DNA from: Symbiodinium sp. CCMP2592
Lineage: Eukaryota > Sar > Dinophyceae > Suessiales > Symbiodiniaceae
DNA: 64,000 bases
Assembly: GCA_905221615.1 (NCBI GenBank)
Contig: CAJNDT010006020.1
Span: 186,001-250,000, forward strand
Reading direction: 5' to 3'
How positions within the stretch are numbered: position 1 is the stretch's first letter; each line of letters opens with the position of its first letter. Positions 3,630-56,300 of the stretch are shown here, piece after piece. Under the pieces are notes generated by a model. The model searched no databases and was not told the DNA's origin. It worked only from the letters and a program-made list of their open reading frames with translations. The position numbers and the translations under genes are program-made.

Positions 3630-6600
3630 GTTGGGGTTGACTTGTCAATTCTACACTAAGGCTCTTTTTGTGGTGATTTCGGGTGCATTCGATTCTTGTA
3701 TTGTATTTCAGTGCCACGCGGCTTTCGGGGTGGAAGAACAAACACTTTGTTCAACCCCAAGCCTTTGCAGGCAGACGGCAGAAGCCTCGCCCTTCACCGC
3801 CGTGCTTCGCGGGCTCGAGCAGCGGCGAAAGGCTCACGTATAGTGGGAGACGGTACAGGGGCTTATTTATTGTTCAGGGTTTAACGTGGAGTTTAAGGCA
3901 ACCGTTATAGTAATCCGTCGGGTTCTCACCGGATCGAGTTGTTCCGGGACATGCTGCTTGCCGGCCGTGCACAGCCGAGAATTCTAAGCGAACACACGAC
4001 AAGATACTACAATATTTTCGAAATACTACACTACAATGGACTGTAACCTACTGTAACATACCATAATATGCCGTAGACCCTAATACAGTACCCTAAATAA
4101 TAGGATCCTTATTATAAGGACCCCCAAAATCAGGTATAATATACCATAATATACCATAACATACCATAATACTATACCATAATAATACCATAATATGCCA
4201 TAACAATACATTAGACTTTGTCCAGCCCCGAAGGCCGAGGCAAAGAGCGCAGCCGAGAGGAGACTCTGGATGCCGCCGTGGCCTCCAAGGCCTTTGACCT
4301 TACTCTTGGTTAGTAGAAAAATGGAAGAATGGTAGTAATAGTACTTATATGGTAGTAATATGATAGCAATATGGTAGTAATAGTAGTTATGGGTTTTGGG
4401 TTTAGGGTTTAGGGTTTATGGAAGAATGGTAGTACTTGTAGTTATAGCATTCCCTACTAACCAAGGCCTTTGACTGGGTGGACGACGTTGTGGACGCGGG
4501 GGACTTGGACTTCTTGGGTTTAGGGTTAAGGGTTTGGGAGTTGTATATATATATATATATATATATGTACACACACACACACACATGCGAACCCACGGAT
4601 GCATGTATGCATGCATACTTGCACACTTCATGTATTCACATGCATACATGCATGCGCGCATGCATGCACACATACATGCAGGCAAACCCGTTAATGCAAT
4701 CCGCAATGAACGCTTTCCTGAAAGCCAACACTCCTAAGTCTCAACTCTCAGTCTGAAGCCCCAAAGCCCTCACCCGAAGCCACAAGTCCAGAGCCCTGCG
4801 GAGTGAAACGCACATCCCAGCATGAACACAAAATACCTCAATTACCACACAATCCCGTTGATAATATTTGCATTCCGTTCCTGAAAGACTTCTCTAAGCC
4901 CTAGACCCTGAACCCCTCCACCTGCCTTAAGTCCGTGTATGGTTATCATATGATAACATATGATGTAACATGGTATAGTATATGTATGGTATAACATAGT
5001 ACAATACGAGATAATATGATATACAATGACGAGTATGGTGGTTCCTTATTCTGACTGTAGTATAATACACCCCAAAACCCTATTCTAATTATTAATTATA
5101 GAACCCTACTATAGACCCCTTCTAGATCCCTGTTAAGGAACCCCTTAAAGGAACCCCAAATTAAGGCCCCTTTTTCTACATCCAATCCCGAGCGGGAAGC
5201 TCAGTCCATGGTCGATGTCGCGAACACCGTGGCCGACTATGGCAGCCAGATCGGCACCGAGCTGGCGGATGTTGGGCTCCAGGTGCGACCCTAAACCCTA
5301 AACCCGTCAGTGTTTATAAACCCAAGCTCTACGGTGAGGACCCGACGACTCAGGATATATATATATATATATATATATATAGGATCTATTTGGTTCCAAA
5401 TTAAGGTAAGTTTGCTAAGGATACCAATATTTCGGATTTTGCCCCCTGGTGGCATCTGAAGCTCCGGTAGGTCCTCAGGGTCTTAGAACTTAGGCAGCAG
5501 GGCTCAGCGCGCCGCTCAAAGAAAGCTTTGCCTTGTGATCCAGGCAGCTCTTTGGGTTTAGGGTTACAGTTTAGGGCCTAGGGGGCTTTGAGGATGTCTT
5601 GGGGGGTCCTTATGTAGTATATAGTGGCCGTAATCATTAGAATCGGGTTGTGGTATAGAATGCTATAGTTAAAGAAGGGCTCCTATATCCCGAGAATCCC
5701 TAGAGCTTAGAGAGCAGAGACCCTAACAAGCAGAATAGGGTTTTGAGGGTATACTGTACTAGTCGTGTGGGGGCTAGAAGGGTAGACTCTTCCTAACCAG
5801 CCAGACCGAAGTATTACACCCTGATTCCCTTCACCCCCACAGAGCCTGCACAGAGGCCGGCAGCGTCGCCGGAAATTCTGCGCTCGTCATCGGAAAGTCG
5901 GTGCCTTGCCGGGTTTGGGATTTAAGGTTTAAGCTTTAGTTTGTGTAGCTGTATTCATGATCGCACAACATCTCGCATCAGGTAGCATTTTCCACAACCT
6001 TTTGTGTTTTCGTTGCGTCTTCTGCTCGACGTGTTCTAAACACTTCTACGCCCTACAGCCTAAGCAGCAAAGCCTCACACTAGACACTACGCCATGTCCT
6101 ACAGTCGAAGACCGGAACCTGTCAAAGGGTCGCCTGCTTCAGGCGTCAAACCTTGGAATGGCTTTCAAGGGTTATTTACAGGGGCCTTGAGAATTAGATT
6201 AGGGTTCCCTTTAAAGGGGTCTATAAGGGATCTATAGTAGGGTTCTATGGTATAAGGGGGAGGCCTGAACAGCTGAGGCTTAAGGGCCTTCAGGGTTTAG
6301 GGTTTATGCTAACCTTGGGTTTAGGCCCGAAGTTTACGGGATGCAAACCTGGTTTTCGGGGATATCCAAGGTGGTGACCGTTGCGGAGCAGACCTACAAA
6401 GCTGTGCCCAGCGAGATCAAAGCAGCGGCCAGCACGTTGGGAAGCGAGGTGCAGATCCGCAGATCATCGTTTGGGGGCAACCCAAAGCCCAAAACCCCTG
6501 AGCTCTTGAACCCTGAACCCAGACCCTAGAACCTGAACCGTAGAACCCTAAACTAACCCCTAAACCCTAAACCGTAAACCCTAAACCCTAAAGCCCTAAA

Positions 6601-41300: not shown

Positions 41301-44300
41301 GTGGTAGTAGTAGAAGTAGGTAGTCGTACAAGTAGTAGTGGAAGTAGTAGTAGTCATAGTAAGATGAGGAGTAGCAGTAGCAATAACAGTAATGGTAATA
41401 ATCATAGTAATAGCAGCAGTAGCAGTAGCAATTTTACTAGTAGTAAAAGCAAGAGTAACAGTCATAGAAATGGTAATAGTAATAGCAGTAGTAATAGTAA
41501 TAGCAAAAGTAGTAAGAATAATGATAAAAGTAATGGTGACAGTAATAGTACTCGTACAAGTAGAGTACTGGTAATAGAAACAATAATAGTAATCGTGATA
41601 GAGATAATAATCGTAAGAGTACTAGTAATAATACTAGTAGTAGTGACTTAGTAGTGATAGTAAGTGTAATATCGTAATAGCAATAGTAATAGCCGCAACA
41701 GCAATAATAGTAGTAACAGTATAATAACGGTAAGGGTCAGAATAAGATTAATAGTAATAATAACAGTAACAGTGATAGTCATAGTAAAAGTAATAGCAAT
41801 GGTAGTAATAATACTAGCACTAGTAGTATAATATTCATAGTTAGAATAATAATAGTAATAGTCATAATCATAGTTACTATAATTTAAGGTATATTCCTTA
41901 ATTAAGGGATATTGGAGTCTCAAGCTTCTTGCTGGGCACAGCAACAGCACCAACAGCCTGCAAAACCCAGCATTTCCGAGGGCCTTTAAAATGAAACCCG
42001 AAACCCCTAAACCCTAACCCCTAAACCCTAAGCCCTAAACCCTGAGCCCTAAACCCTAAAGCCCTTTAGCTTTAGAGGTCAATCCGAAACCCGAAACCGT
42101 TTAGGGCTCCGGGGCTCCGGGGGGGCTCGGCCGTGAGGTGAGCGGTCCGTCCGTGGTGATGCAGAGCCCGGGCTGCCCGAATGTGCGCCTTGCTTGGGAT
42201 TTGGGGCGTACGATAGGGGCCTTAATGGTTACTCTAGGGTTCCTTTAAAGGGGTCTATAAGGGTTACTATAAGGGGATCAATTGCAGGGTTCTATAGTAT
42301 GGGGGGCCTTAATGATTACTTTTTGCAATTTTAGTGGATTCCTGATTATAATGTGCAGTGTAATGGGCTCCGAAACCCTATTCTAGTTTTTAGGCCCCTA
42401 AATTAGGGTTCCGGGTTTGAGTTTAGGGGCTGTGGACTTTGAGGTCTGAGGCTATGGCCTGTGGGGCTTGAGAGTGCTGTAGGTTGAGGCCTCAGAAAAA
42501 TGAATGGCTCACGAAGAAGCACTCACCCAGGGCCATGCAACTGAGGTGCCGAGCTGGACTAGCTTGCTTCGAAGCTTAAATCCGCCCACCAAATCCAATC
42601 CTCAACCCCAGAACACCCAACGCCTAAAACCCTTGTGCATCAAGCCATGAAAATTTACGAAATACAGTTATTGTGGCTTAGGGATTTAAAACTCCAACTC
42701 CAACAAAGCCTCCGAGGTTCATGGGAGATCGGTTTTTGGACCTGGGCCCGTGGCGCCTGGCCGCCTGGGACGACAACCATCTCTCCATTGCCCACAAGAC
42801 GGGTCAGGCGGGCTTTTGGGTTTAGGGTTTAGGGTTTAGGGTTAGGGTTTAGGGGATTTTGGTTGTGAAGGTTATCGCTTTCTTCATGATTATCATTATC
42901 ATTAGCATTTTTACTACCCTGACTTTAGTGTTTTTTCTCTCAGTGGCGGGGTGCAAGGTTCTTTTGGGGCTGCTGGGTTAGAATCTGGTCTTTCGACATC
43001 AAGGAGTTTGGATCTAGGGCTTTAGGGTTGTGATGTTCTCTTGCAGGTGTCCTGTAACGCGAAGCGGACATGATGCGTCGGTGAGCTTCTTCGGGCTACT
43101 TCCCAGAGTGCTTAAGCTACATTCCTCAACTAATAGTAGTCCCTATATACTCCCCAATACTAGCCCCCCATACTCCATTCCCCCATTCCCTGCGCCTCAA
43201 CCAGACCAGGCTGTTGCTTCATATTATGATTTAAGCTATATTCCTGAATTAAGGGGTATTGGGCTCTCTGGGTTCCCAGAGTGCTTTAAGGTACATTCCT
43301 TAACCAGACCAGGATCTAGGAACTCGGTGCCTCGAGCCCTTGAGGGCTTGAGCCTGCTCAGGGCTTCAGGGCTTTGAGGGTTTTTTTGGTCCGTCGAGGT
43401 CTGGTGTTTCCAATTTACCGGGTCTTGTTTGGGATTTTCTTGGGGCCCGGTCCCTAAGACCAACAGGGATCCCTACAGTAGTCCCTAAAAAAAATCCCCA
43501 AGAATAGTCCCCATACTCCATTCCCCCATTCCCTACTGACAGAAGACCTCAGCCCTGCGCCTCAACCAGACCAGGCTGCCATCGTCTTCCGCAGCGACGG
43601 GGTGGTGCCGCTTGGCTGGGGAACAGAGTCCAAGTGAGCCTCACGCCTCTCCCAACCCCACACGCCCACTCTGAAAGATTTCCGACTCTTGGCGGAGCTA
43701 TCCCGGAACTTTACAGACCACTTAAGACTTAGCCCGACGAGCGGTGGATGCGACAACGATGGCTGCAGGTGGGGTGGGAGGAGGCTATGTCGAATCCTGA
43801 AGCCGACGCAACAACTCGGTGAGATATCTCGTTTGCGTACCCGTGAAAAATTCGAAACACTCCGTGTCGCTAGTCGTTCCTCTACCGATGCGCTTCTGGA
43901 GACCCAGCAAGACTCAATTGAGGAAAGCTCTTGAAAATCTGTTCGAGCCATCTCGGCCTGCTAGATTCCAGAACTGTCCCCAAAGCTGTTTCGTTCGCAC
44001 GACCGCTGCGCCGGGAAGCTCACCTCGGAAATTGGGAGCTTGGTCACTTAGTGCCCTGAAGCTCAGAACTAGTTTGTATCACACGATGGCTCAGGCTCCA
44101 CCAGCGGACGGATCTTCTGGCCTTCAGCCGCCCCGTCGCCCCGCCGAAAGGCAGGCACCGTCGAAGACCCAATTCAGTGACCCTTTACCCCAACCGGAAG
44201 CCCAGCTTTTCTGCCTTGAAGCTTCCTGTCTACGACTCCAGAGCCTCAAAGGCTTGAGCCCTCAAGCTTTATGGCTTTTTCCCGCTGCCCAGCCCCCGAC

Positions 44301-50300: not shown

Positions 50301-53300
50301 AGCAGGCAGGTGCTGAAATATGCATTTGCTGCATTCTAGCCTTTCTTGAGTATCTCTCGTGTTGGGGCTCGATTTGGAGGGAGCAAGTCGGCCCACCCGC
50401 GGTGAGGCTGTCGACCTGTTCTTTCACGACTGCCAGCTAAAGCACTTAATACGTGCGCACGCCGCATCGACATTAGCACGGCGGTGCCATCTGAAAGCGT
50501 GTGATGCACGGGAGTTGACTTCAGGAGACATCCGCAACCGAAGTTCTACCAGTGTTTTTTGTCACAGACGTGCTGCTGAGACATGCTGCACATGCAGGCC
50601 CTTATTGAGTTTGCTTGATCGGATTGTGGCGAGGGCTGGGTGCCTGAGAGCTTTGAAAGATCTGGGGCCACACGCTTTGTCAAAATTTTTCGCGACATCG
50701 TTTCGTCTAAGTAAACTGATAACTGCCAAACCGATACAACTAAGCTCAGCTTTAGTCGTGCCGGACCTGCCCTGTACAAGCTTGGCAATTTGCCTTACGA
50801 CGCGGTTCTTCAGTCTGAACTTCTACCTACGCGCCGGTGCGAGCTAGCCTTCATGAGACCTTATGAGACCTTACATTGCCACGTCGGCATGCAACATGAG
50901 GAGGTTCGTTCAAGAGCTTTAGTAGTCGGGCGTCAGCCGAAACCTTCTGCCGCTTGCGTGTGTCTGTACAAATAGCGGTTATGGGTTGCTACACTCGGGG
51001 AATTCATGGGGCCATGTCACCCGTATTGATGGATCCCAACCCCCAAGCGCCATATGGGAGTTTCCGAAAATAGGAGACCCGAATATAGCACCTAAATAAA
51101 TAGTAGGATCCTTATTATCAGGACCCCAAATAAGATACCCCGAAGTTTCGGCAACCCCCATATCGGTGTATGAAGTTGCAATCTTTGCAGTTCGAAGCCC
51201 GAATGCTCGACAGGGTATCACTTTCGGGGATCGTTTCTTGGAAATTGGCCTGTGGCGCTTTGCAGATGTGTCTGGCCAGCATTGTGGCAACTTTATGTGT
51301 GTGTGTGTGTTATAGTGGCAGACAAGCATTGGGTTTTTTGCGATGCAGCATGCAGGAACACGGTTCATCGGTTTTTGTTGCGTGGTGACTAGTGAAAGCG
51401 GATGGAGCTGCAAGTCAATACTTTCCCAGTTGCCTTGGGCTTGTGCTTTCCCACCGGCCAGCATGTTCAAACTGTTGAGCCCAGTGCCTCGCACTGCATT
51501 GTTGGTCAGAACTGAAGTTGTAGCCACGCCGGCCGATTGTTCATTCAAGATGTAGCTTAGGTGGACGGCGAGCATTTCGCGCTTTCGCAGGCTCGGGCTG
51601 GCATTAAAGACCATGGGTCGAGATATGTTTTGGTGACAATTTCCGAACTCGGCACGAGCCGCACGTTTGATGTGCCGCAATTACGTATCCTCTCCAATTC
51701 AGCCTTCTGCCAGTTCCGAGTGTTTGTACGACCAATCTCCTCCACATACACCTGATCAGCAGAATACAGATTTTATCATCGAACTTCAGCTGCTTTCCGC
51801 AACGCATCAACAAAAAATATCAAACAGCCTAATATTTGCCACTACCATACGACCTTTACTACATCCCATCTTCAAAATTTATTGCTGGATTCCTCAGATA
51901 CATGTGAACCAACAGTCCGTCATTCTGATGGTCGTAAGGCCAAAACAAACGAAGTAACTTCAACAGGTAACTACTTAGTAACCTTGCAGGCCAATCTGCG
52001 ACGATTTCTGATTAAACAAGGAAGTACTGACTTGTGATTCAGTAGAAGCAGCAACGTCGTGGGAGTAGTAGCAAGGTCAGCAGCACTAATGTGAAACTAA
52101 ACCCTAAACCCCTAAACCCTAAACGGTCAATACCGAAGCTGGTCCAGGCGGGAGGGCAGACGGCTCAAATCTTCCGCAGCGACAATCGGCTGTTCCCGGG
52201 ACCGAACGCGCACTGGACCGGCGTGTTCGACAGGTTCGGCTGGGGCTTCGGTTGAGGTTGGAAGGCTTCGGACGATGTCTGCGACGATCAAAAAGCCCGA
52301 CTGAAACCCTAAACCCTAAACCCCTAAACCCCTGAACCTCCAAACCCCTAAACCCTAAACCCCTAAACCCCTAAACCCTAAACCCTAAACCCTAAACCCT
52401 AAACCCTAAACCCCTAAACCCCTTATCCCCTAAACCCTAAACCCCCAAACCCTCATCCTTTGGTGGTGTTGTGTGTGCTCGAATCTGCCTCGCGGGGCCC
52501 AACCAGGGCAAAAGGCTTCGGCTTCGGGTTTGGCAACATCTCAGGCACAGATCCATAATGTAGCAGGTTTAGGGGTTTAGGCTTTAGGGTTTAGGCTTTA
52601 GGGTTTAGGGTTTAGTGTTTAGGGTTCGGGCTTTAGGGTTTAGGGTTTAGGCTTTAGGGTTTAGGGTTTAGGGTTTAGTGGTTAGGGTATGGGCTTTAGG
52701 GTTTAGGGTTCAGGCTTTAGGGTTTAGGGTTTGGGCTTTAGGGTTTAGGGTTTAGGCTTTAGGGTTTAGGGTTCAGGCACTCATCCATACTGTAGCAGGT
52801 TTAGGGTTTAGGGTTCACGCACAGATCCATAATGTAGAGGTTCGAGAAATTATTCCCCAACTCATAAAGGTTGTCGCATGCCCGAAAAACCCTAAGTATT
52901 CGAAGTATGGAGGCCCCTGTACTAGCCGAAACACAAAAGCGGAGGATCTGCCAAGCCCTGTGCAACTTCCGAGAAGCTTCTTAAGTCCCCGAGAGCAGGG
53001 TGAAACATACCCAATGAGGGCCTTTAGGAGATTTTGGCGTGGTTTTGGGAATGGTCATAGAAAGCTTACTCAGTTGAAGGTTTTCGTTTTCGGGCTTTAA
53101 GCCCCAGGGTTTCGGTTCGAAGCGACAGGTATCCCGAGTACCACTGCGGCTCCATCCACTCCGTTTTTGGATCCTGCACCGGGCTTGTCACCGGTGATCG
53201 GTTCATCCAGCTCCTCTGAACCAAAGTTGTCAGGGCAGTACCCTAAGGCCCCAAAGTAGTTCCTTTTTGTTGTTCAAGAATCCTATAGGGTATTCCCAAA

Positions 53301-56300
53301 AAGGAACCACTTTGGGGCCTCTGGGTAACATGGTTGGAAACACGCAGCAAAGCAAGACCCTGCGTGCAACGCCGCTCCTCTGAGGTTGGGAGATTGGCGC
53401 CTTGCCGACATCGATGCTGGGTTCTTGTTAGAAGATGTACTTTAAGCTACCATAGTAAAAGAAATCATATTATTTGCTGTAGATCCCTAATATGGTAACT
53501 TTACTAAATCCTATTTGCTATAGATCCCTAATATGGTAACTTTACTTAAATCCTTGAGCAAGAATCCAGGATGGCAACCACTTCTCCCTGTCCTGCAAGA
53601 CGGGGCAGACTTCCCAGGTCTCCTGTCTGTGGCGGCATCGGAATTCAGGGTTCAGGGCTTGGGTCTGGATTTTGTAGTATAGAAGTAGTAATAAGAATAC
53701 ACTAACATCAATAGTAATAAAATAGTAGCAACATTAATAGTAATAGCAATAATCATAATACTAATAGTAAGGAGCCCTCAGGGATATGTCGGAGTCATAT
53801 CGGTGCTGCGGCTAAGGGTTCAAGCATTCGGGCTACGTCAGCTGCGCAGGCAATACAAGTCTTACGTTGAACATTGCAGGTGTGTTGCTTCTGAGCTTGG
53901 ACGTCGCCAAGCCCGAAGCCCTGAAGCCGTTGAGCCCTGAATCCAATCAGCCAATCAACCCTCAAACCCTGAAACCTTCGAACCCCGAAAGCCCTAGACA
54001 AAACCCAAACGCCTGTCGTGTCCTCATCACCTTCTTAGACCTCCAGTTTTATACAGGTATGTCCAGCATCCCTTTCATGGAGAGCCCTTAAGGGCTTAAA
54101 GGAACCCTCAAGTCCATATCCTTCTTAAACCTCCCTTGAAGATGGAGCCTCAAAGTGCCTTGAAGGCTTATTGTAGCCCTTGCATCGCCTCCGTAACTCC
54201 CGCGCTTCCAAGCGGAGTACGGAGGCTGAACCGAGCTTTTCTGCAACATCGGAGGGGGATCGATGCGTCCTTGGGTGAAGGACCCCACAATTTGGGGTGT
54301 ATCTTGGGGTCCTTAGCTGTCTTTTGACGGTGTTTTGGCGCTTGCTGTTGCTGTGTGTTAGGTATTCCACCGCGACGGCGCAGTGCTCCTTGGCAGTACT
54401 TGGCAAGTGGCCAAGGCGAAGGGTCTTCCCTTTGAGTAGCCGGAAATAGGAGCCTAAAAAAGAAAGTACCTATACTATTTTAGGGGGTCCTCATTGTAAT
54501 TATCTATCCCAAAACCCTATTCTAATTAGTAAGGCCCCTGTATTACACCACAGAAGGGCAGGGTTCAGGGAAGAAGGGGTGTCCAGGTCCAGGTTGTTGG
54601 GTAGCTTGTCTGCATAAGGGGCCGACAGATCTCTTCCACGCTCCTGAAACTCAGACTCAAGCAGAAAAGCCCGTCCCGACCAATAAATGACAACCTAACC
54701 TCACAGCTTCATCCTTGACCTTGGTTCTGCTTAGGGCAGATTTTGGGGTTCTTCCTAGGAGGAGTAGTTTCAACCAAAATGTTTACGTACATTAAACCCC
54801 AAAACCCCACATCCAAAAGTGAAATCACGGAGCCTTCAACCGCAAAAGCCCGACCCGAATTGTACTTCAGACCAACTTGAAGGCTCATGGGACTTAGTAA
54901 GTAAGGTTACAAGTAGGTTATAATCAGGATAACCCCACTTAGGGGACTTTTTACCCCAGTTATAACCTACTTACTAAGTCCCATGATCCTCTAAGAAGGA
55001 TGACCGGTCCTCGCACTGATTTCGGGGCCTGGAAGCGCGAGGCCCGGGAGGCTTCGGTTTGCAGGAGTTCTCGGGGTGCAGGGCTTTAGGGCTTAGGGTT
55101 TATAGGATTTAGGGTTTAGGGTGCAGGGCTTTAGGGCTTGCGGGGTCTAGGTTTCTATGGGACTTAGGGTTTAGGGTTAAGGGTTTATGGGCTAGGGGCT
55201 TAGTTTAGGTTTAGGGTGTAGGGTTTCAGGGTTTTTCTGGGTTTGGGTTTATGGATTTAGGGTTTTATTCCTGGTATCCGTAGCCATTTTGGCTCAAGGC
55301 GTCGCGGCTCGAGGCTATTGACCTGGTGTCTTTTCCCAAAGTGCCCTGGTCTTAGCTGCTTCCCGACCCCAGCTACTTTCCTGTTTCTGTAGCGCCATAG
55401 CTGGTCCCCGGTGGCCTCTATCTTGAGCTCCTGTTGCCTTGCGACTGAGCTCATCGCATTCGCAATCGTCACCGTTGACATTGCATATTGCACTGGTTGG
55501 TTATTTCGAGCTGGCCATTCGTCGTATCCACTGCGACTTGTTCCCTTTGATGTCATCGCTTACCGAGTGGGATGGTTTCTGCTGCCGCAAGCTCGATTCC
55601 GGGTTGCGGGCTCTGATCTTCCACATGCATTGTCTGTGCGGTTTCTGCTGCTCAATTGAACAGTACGACGCAATCAGCCACGACTGCCACCAGCACGGTG
55701 ACCAGCACGACGCCATCTACCAACACGGTGACCAAGGCCACTGCTTCAGGATGGAGACTACGACGCTGTCTACTACGGCTACTGCCACCAGTGCGGTGGC
55801 CCGTGCCAGCAGCACGGTGACCAGCACGACGCAGTCTACGATGACTGCGACGGTGACCACAGCCCCTGCCGCCAGTACGGTGACCGGCACGACACTGTCT
55901 ACCGCGCTGGTGGCCACGACCACTGCCACTAGCACGGTGACTAGTTCGACACTGTCTACCTTGACGACAACGGCCACTGTCACCAGCACGGTGACCAGTA
56001 CGCTGCAGTCTACTACGACGGTGACAACGGGCACCACAGCCAGCGTGCCCAGCACGACGCTGTCTACCACCTTGGTGAGAGGGCCCCGTCGTGACTTGTT
56101 CTTACAGTTTTCTGCCTTTTCCTCTGAATGCCTTGATTGGGGTCAGGCACTCAGGACTTTTGTGTTTGTTGGACAGACCCTGACTTTTGCGGGTAATTAA
56201 GTGCTGCCCGTGTCAGGTTGTTTTGCAGCACTGTGCTCTTTTCCAGTCAGCGGTGTTGCCGGTCTTTGCCTCGTGCTGTCAGGGGCGACCGCTGGTGCCG

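Follow-up and report, generated by a model that had tools for sequence, protein, structure and literature searches.

A MITE-like element in a Symbiodinium repeat module as a probable GA-AG intron

Introduction

In Symbiodinium microadriaticum, introners of family 1 have a 4-bp target-site duplication (TSD) and terminal inverted repeats (TIRs), carry their own 3′ splice site and obtain the 5′ splice site from the TSD (Gozashti et al. 2022, PMC9860276, Fig. 2B). The example cited there spans scaffold positions 86725-86839 (115 bp), and GA donors reach shares of up to 40% in some introner families (PMC9860276). Introners have also been described in five dinoflagellate genomes, including that of Polarella glacialis (Roy et al. 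2023, Curr Biol, as cited in PMC11453091), and in Amoebophrya, in which introner elements have inverted repeats and direct repeats of 3-5 nt at exon borders (Farhat et al. 2021, PMC7789003). The predominant donors in S. microadriaticum are GC, GT and GA (PMC5177918), GC-AG and GA-AG boundaries account for 25-74% in Symbiodiniaceae (PMC11453091) and gene-finding tools have been modified to accept GA (PMC8045281). Because Symbiodiniaceae ordinarily use GA, GC and GT donors, a GA donor requires no special explanation.

Here we describe a 153-bp element inside a repeat module, referred to as module 7, in a 64,000-nucleotide stretch of the Symbiodinium sp. CCMP2592 genome (the window). We propose, with a probability of about 80%, that a non-autonomous DNA transposon (MITE) with CTGG...CCAG ends entered a coding exon and duplicated the sequence GATG, and that the spliceosome would remove positions 53413-53569 as a GA-AG intron, a reading drawn from the genomic sequence. 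Likened by description only, the element shares with S. microadriaticum family 1 the 4-bp TSD, the TIRs and, as predicted here, the provision of the 3′ splice site by the element and of the 5′ splice site by the TSD; the 115 bp of the cited example are also close to the 111 bp common in the present family. The likeness to the dinoflagellate introners of Roy et al. 2023 (via PMC11453091) lies in introner-driven intron gain. Amoebophrya introners are looser relatives: they have inverted repeats and short direct repeats at exon borders too, but in PMC7789003 their splice motifs are described as very variable and their inverted repeats as lacking a family-specific motif, whereas one family end motif finishing in AG recurs here. 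The principle is thus already in print for S. microadriaticum, in the family 1 description of PMC9860276, and the first-pass annotation of this DNA had overstated its novelty. What the locus offers is a clean, readable case of transposon-made intron birth, in which, if the predicted splicing holds, a relaxed GA donor comes from the exon itself.

Results and discussion

On the forward strand, the letters at the site run GACATC, GATG, the 153-bp element (starting CTGGGTTCTTG and ending CAAGAATCCAG), GATG and GCAACCACTTC. Upstream of the insertion, the stretch of the module 7 coding exon at 53386-53412 reads LGDWRLADI and is followed by the first copy of the TSD (GATG, 53413-53416), whose GA is the proposed 5′ splice site. 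The element itself (53417-53569), which has the structure of a MITE or introner with TIRs, begins with a left TIR at 53417-53433 (CTGGGTTCTTGTTAGAA; family form CTGGGTTCTTGTTAAGG), contains an internal direct repeat at 53471-53549 (two 38-nt copies with a spacing of 41 nt) and closes with a right TIR at 53553-53569 that ends in CCAG, the AG being the proposed 3′ splice site. The second GATG (53570-53573) would be retained in the exon, the downstream part of which (53570-53620) reads (D)GNHFSLSCKTGQTSQV. Re-reading the letters confirmed a 153-bp element between two GATG copies at the coordinates that the first-pass annotation had given; its description of 11-bp inverted ends was nearly exact, with one mismatch, and the ends pair imperfectly at 10 of 11 and 12 of 17 bases. 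The window copy is longer than the 111-bp copy L028 by a block of 41 bases and one further base, and the two are identical at 89 of the 111 aligned bases. A second MITE-like element lies just upstream in the window (53239-53327), with 31-nt arms that are 90% complementary and 27 nt apart, and with TA at both outer ends.

In the mechanism that we propose, a transposase encoded elsewhere would move the element, and insertion would duplicate four exon bases, GATG in this case. The left copy of the duplication would then provide the 5′ splice site (here GA) and the terminal CAG of the element the 3′ splice site, and the right copy would restore the exon when the spliceosome removed 53413-53569. 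Read outward, each inverted end closes with CCAG, so a 3′ splice site would be available in either orientation, and any target that begins with G followed by A, C or T could supply the donor. The window copy and another copy, L002, have opposite internal orientations; the coding context of L002 looks PPR-like by eye without a Pfam match, and we set it aside as a PPR example.

We considered whether the element might be removed through its inverted-end hairpin, by an unusual mechanism of the kind proposed for Amoebophrya introners, rather than by ordinary spliceosomal splicing. The RNA of the element is predicted to fold into a long, stable hairpin (-42.9 kcal/mol, z = -2.73, with none of 200 shuffles equally stable), and the Amoebophrya introners likewise combine inverted repeats with direct repeats of 3-5 nt (PMC7789003). 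However, any element with inverted ends should form such a hairpin, and GA-AG boundaries have already been reported in these algae, so a special mechanism is unneeded; we give this route hardly any credence.

Removal of 53413-53569 (157 bp), as GA-AG splicing would achieve, turns the interrupted WRLADIDGNHF module into LGDWRLADIDGNHFSLSCKTGQTSQV, a module without gaps, whereas the unspliced reading frame meets a stop soon past the junction. Diverged GDRF-LGxWRL-DGxHFSISH modules form an array of about 16 kb in the window (at 42751, 44348, 46559, 48280, 51253, 57542 and 59109), and similar modules are found elsewhere in the genome, some of them within long open frames. The first-pass annotation had counted eight sister modules in the window and had used them as a pre-insertion control. 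The count was generous: seven other window modules scored against module 7, with scores of 34 to 81, those at 51253 and 57542 being weak, and two further fragments (46313 and 51546) are doubtful as modules. As to the control, the sister modules are paralogues and show the expected register, but not a true empty site. Genome-wide matches to the module are a better control than the modules of the window. Searching the genome with the module gave 54 matches at E values up to 10, counted by hand, many of which are weak and which include the downstream half of module 7 itself and two other window modules. None of the 18 full-length matches (all 26 residues) has a net gap, and among all 54 there are only two with a net difference, in each case one extra codon.

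The same junction could also be read as a GC-AG intron at 53416-53569, formed by the last G of GATG and the C of the element. This intron would be in frame and would lengthen the protein by one Asp. In S. microadriaticum, GC donors are common (PMC5177918), and codon-adding introners are known elsewhere (PMC9860276). The added residue would nevertheless break the spacing kept by 52 of the 54 module matches, and the GC-AG version scored lower than the GA-AG version against all eight sister modules fetched from outside the window. We consider a GC-AG intron very unlikely, and the earlier proposal that GA-AG removal restores the motif is upheld. A comparison of module 7 with solved structures gave nothing useful (E = 1.4).

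The element is part of a large MITE-like family with a 4-bp duplication. In the genome that we searched (1.10 Gb in 5383 contigs), the whole element has at least 40 scored matches, its own place included, this being a lower bound since there were 268 candidates at first look. The 17-base end motif, allowing up to one mismatch, was found at 4357 sites, compared with seven for a control. To these we can add a sample of paired copies drawn from 100 listed end-motif places, of which 90 loci (L041 to L130) were used; the remainder were eight places that are second ends of elements already represented, and the last two on the list. These loci gave 65 element pairs with one end exact, two of which share an end at L053, and 26 of the 90 loci yielded no new pair, in some cases since the element had already been counted. 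Alongside the TIRs, an exact 4-bp duplication was present in 27 of the 65 paired copies (1.3% with shuffled flanks), and three of the four duplication bases matched in a further 18 (8.0% with shuffled flanks). On these counts we reject both a chance origin and a single-copy element without relatives, the latter being the case that the first-pass annotation had named against itself. The end motif had no match in the literature searched.

We then asked which donors the family would provide genome-wide. Among 1435 exact end motifs, the first two of the four preceding bases were GH in 403, GG in 27, HG in 81 and HH in 924 (H being A, C or T), and the donor-specific pattern was not significant (odds ratio 1.31, p = 0.28). 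G is scarce at the second of the four bases whatever the first base (108/1435), which may reflect a target preference. A start compatible with a donor was present on at least one strand in 34 of 50 copies with exact duplications and on neither in 16. In these 50 copies, 23 of which had first been selected for having an exact duplication, the length of the open reading frame gave no signal of coding context: the donor-strand frame was the longer one in 14 of 26 untied cases, and there were five ties. An unselected Pfam test of 100 peptides, the longest junction-spanning open reading frame per strand of the 50 copies, gave a weak difference, with matches in 2 of 37 donor-strand peptides and 0 of 63 controls (p = 0.13); the longest-frame rule missed the module frame in the window copy (L001). 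Because donor-compatible duplications are not clearly enriched genome-wide, many copies may be plain insertions outside exons, with only the exonic ones acting as introns.

It is somewhat short of an even chance, in our judgement, that insertions of this family make introns irrespective of their orientation, an exact intron arising whenever the 4-bp target starts with GA, GC or GT. If this is true, acceptance of GA and GC donors would roughly triple the harmless target sites in dinoflagellates, and relaxed donors could explain the success of introners in this lineage. With its many insertions in a single genome, the family allows one to ask whether relaxed donors let introns spread.

Several copies chosen by eye lie in apparent coding exons other than that of module 7. 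In L049, whose duplication is GAAA and which lies in a proteasome beta-2-like gene, 45 proteasome beta chain sequences match the joined peptide (best E = 1.9e-17). Among five displayed alignments, two, with beta type-2 chains as partners, are gapless over query residues 9-76, a span that contains the junction at residue 36; a one-residue gap interrupts the remaining three, the best-scoring ones included, a few residues before the junction. One partner in a gapless alignment is named PUP1, a yeast gene name. A GC-AG intron is not an option in L049, because the duplication ends in A, and here the GA reading fits the PUP1 chain. For L004, which is read on the minus strand and whose coding-strand duplication is GAGG, peptide-synthetase adenylation domains align with the joined peptide over residues 20-97; the alignment crosses the junction, close to which the targets have insertions one or two residues long. 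Neither L049 nor L004 has a Pfam match that crosses the junction; in each, the match is confined to one side. L043 matches TMEM144 over residues 25-86, which passes the junction at residue 27 by three residues, and L042 matches ankyrin repeats over 9-45 with the junction at 40; three of the four duplication bases match in each of these two copies. L036 also has ankyrin repeat matches, the sole junction-spanning one being below Pfam's own cut-off. On the sequence, removal of the element restores the reading frame in different coding exons for L001, L049 and L004, all picked by eye, and less fully for L043, L042 and L036. In all six copies with protein evidence, the upstream duplication begins with the predicted donor bases on the coding strand (GA in five, GC in one) and the predicted acceptor is the last AG of the element, compared with donor-compatible bases at 403 of the 1435 end motifs genome-wide, a contrast that selection by eye makes weaker. 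Run on ten eye-picked peptides at a threshold of 0.01, Pfam gave a match in five and none in L002, L020, L064, L101 and module 7.

These copies bear on a further possibility, namely that the MITE merely broke up a single module in a repeat gene that is decaying, and that the element is left unspliced and the exon dead. The absence of a significant donor-specific bias of the family genome-wide would fit such a case, as would the degenerate state of some window modules, and the gene containing module 7 may indeed be decaying. Against it, the downstream half of module 7 is still open and module-like, and related copies occur in conserved genes, among them the proteasome subunit, in which the joined peptide stays in register with the PUP1 chain. 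We think a dead exon unlikely, and prefer the GA-AG intron.

The first-pass annotation had predicted that the family would recur inside exons with 4-bp duplications and GA, GC and GT donors. The eye-picked copies with protein matches bear this out for GA and, once, for GC, but GT appears only in weaker examples (L025 and L101). We discarded L101 as a nucleotidyltransferase example; its E value of 0.0093 and a match that starts two residues before the junction mean that it proves little. No homologue was found for L025 in the Pfam run that included it. Positions 985-1771 of L025 hold three family copies in an apparent single open coding stretch, with the duplications GCAA, GTTT and GCTT, an arrangement that is no more than suggestive.

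Two further observations concern base composition and the spliced leader, the latter marking the host as a dinoflagellate. The G+C content of the window is near one half, which, like the size of the genome, would fit the values given for Symbiodiniaceae in PMC11114475. The dinoflagellate spliced-leader sequence, its letters taken from PMC8045281, has no copies when the pattern is read backwards and 429 exact copies in the genome as written, 217 forward and 212 reverse.
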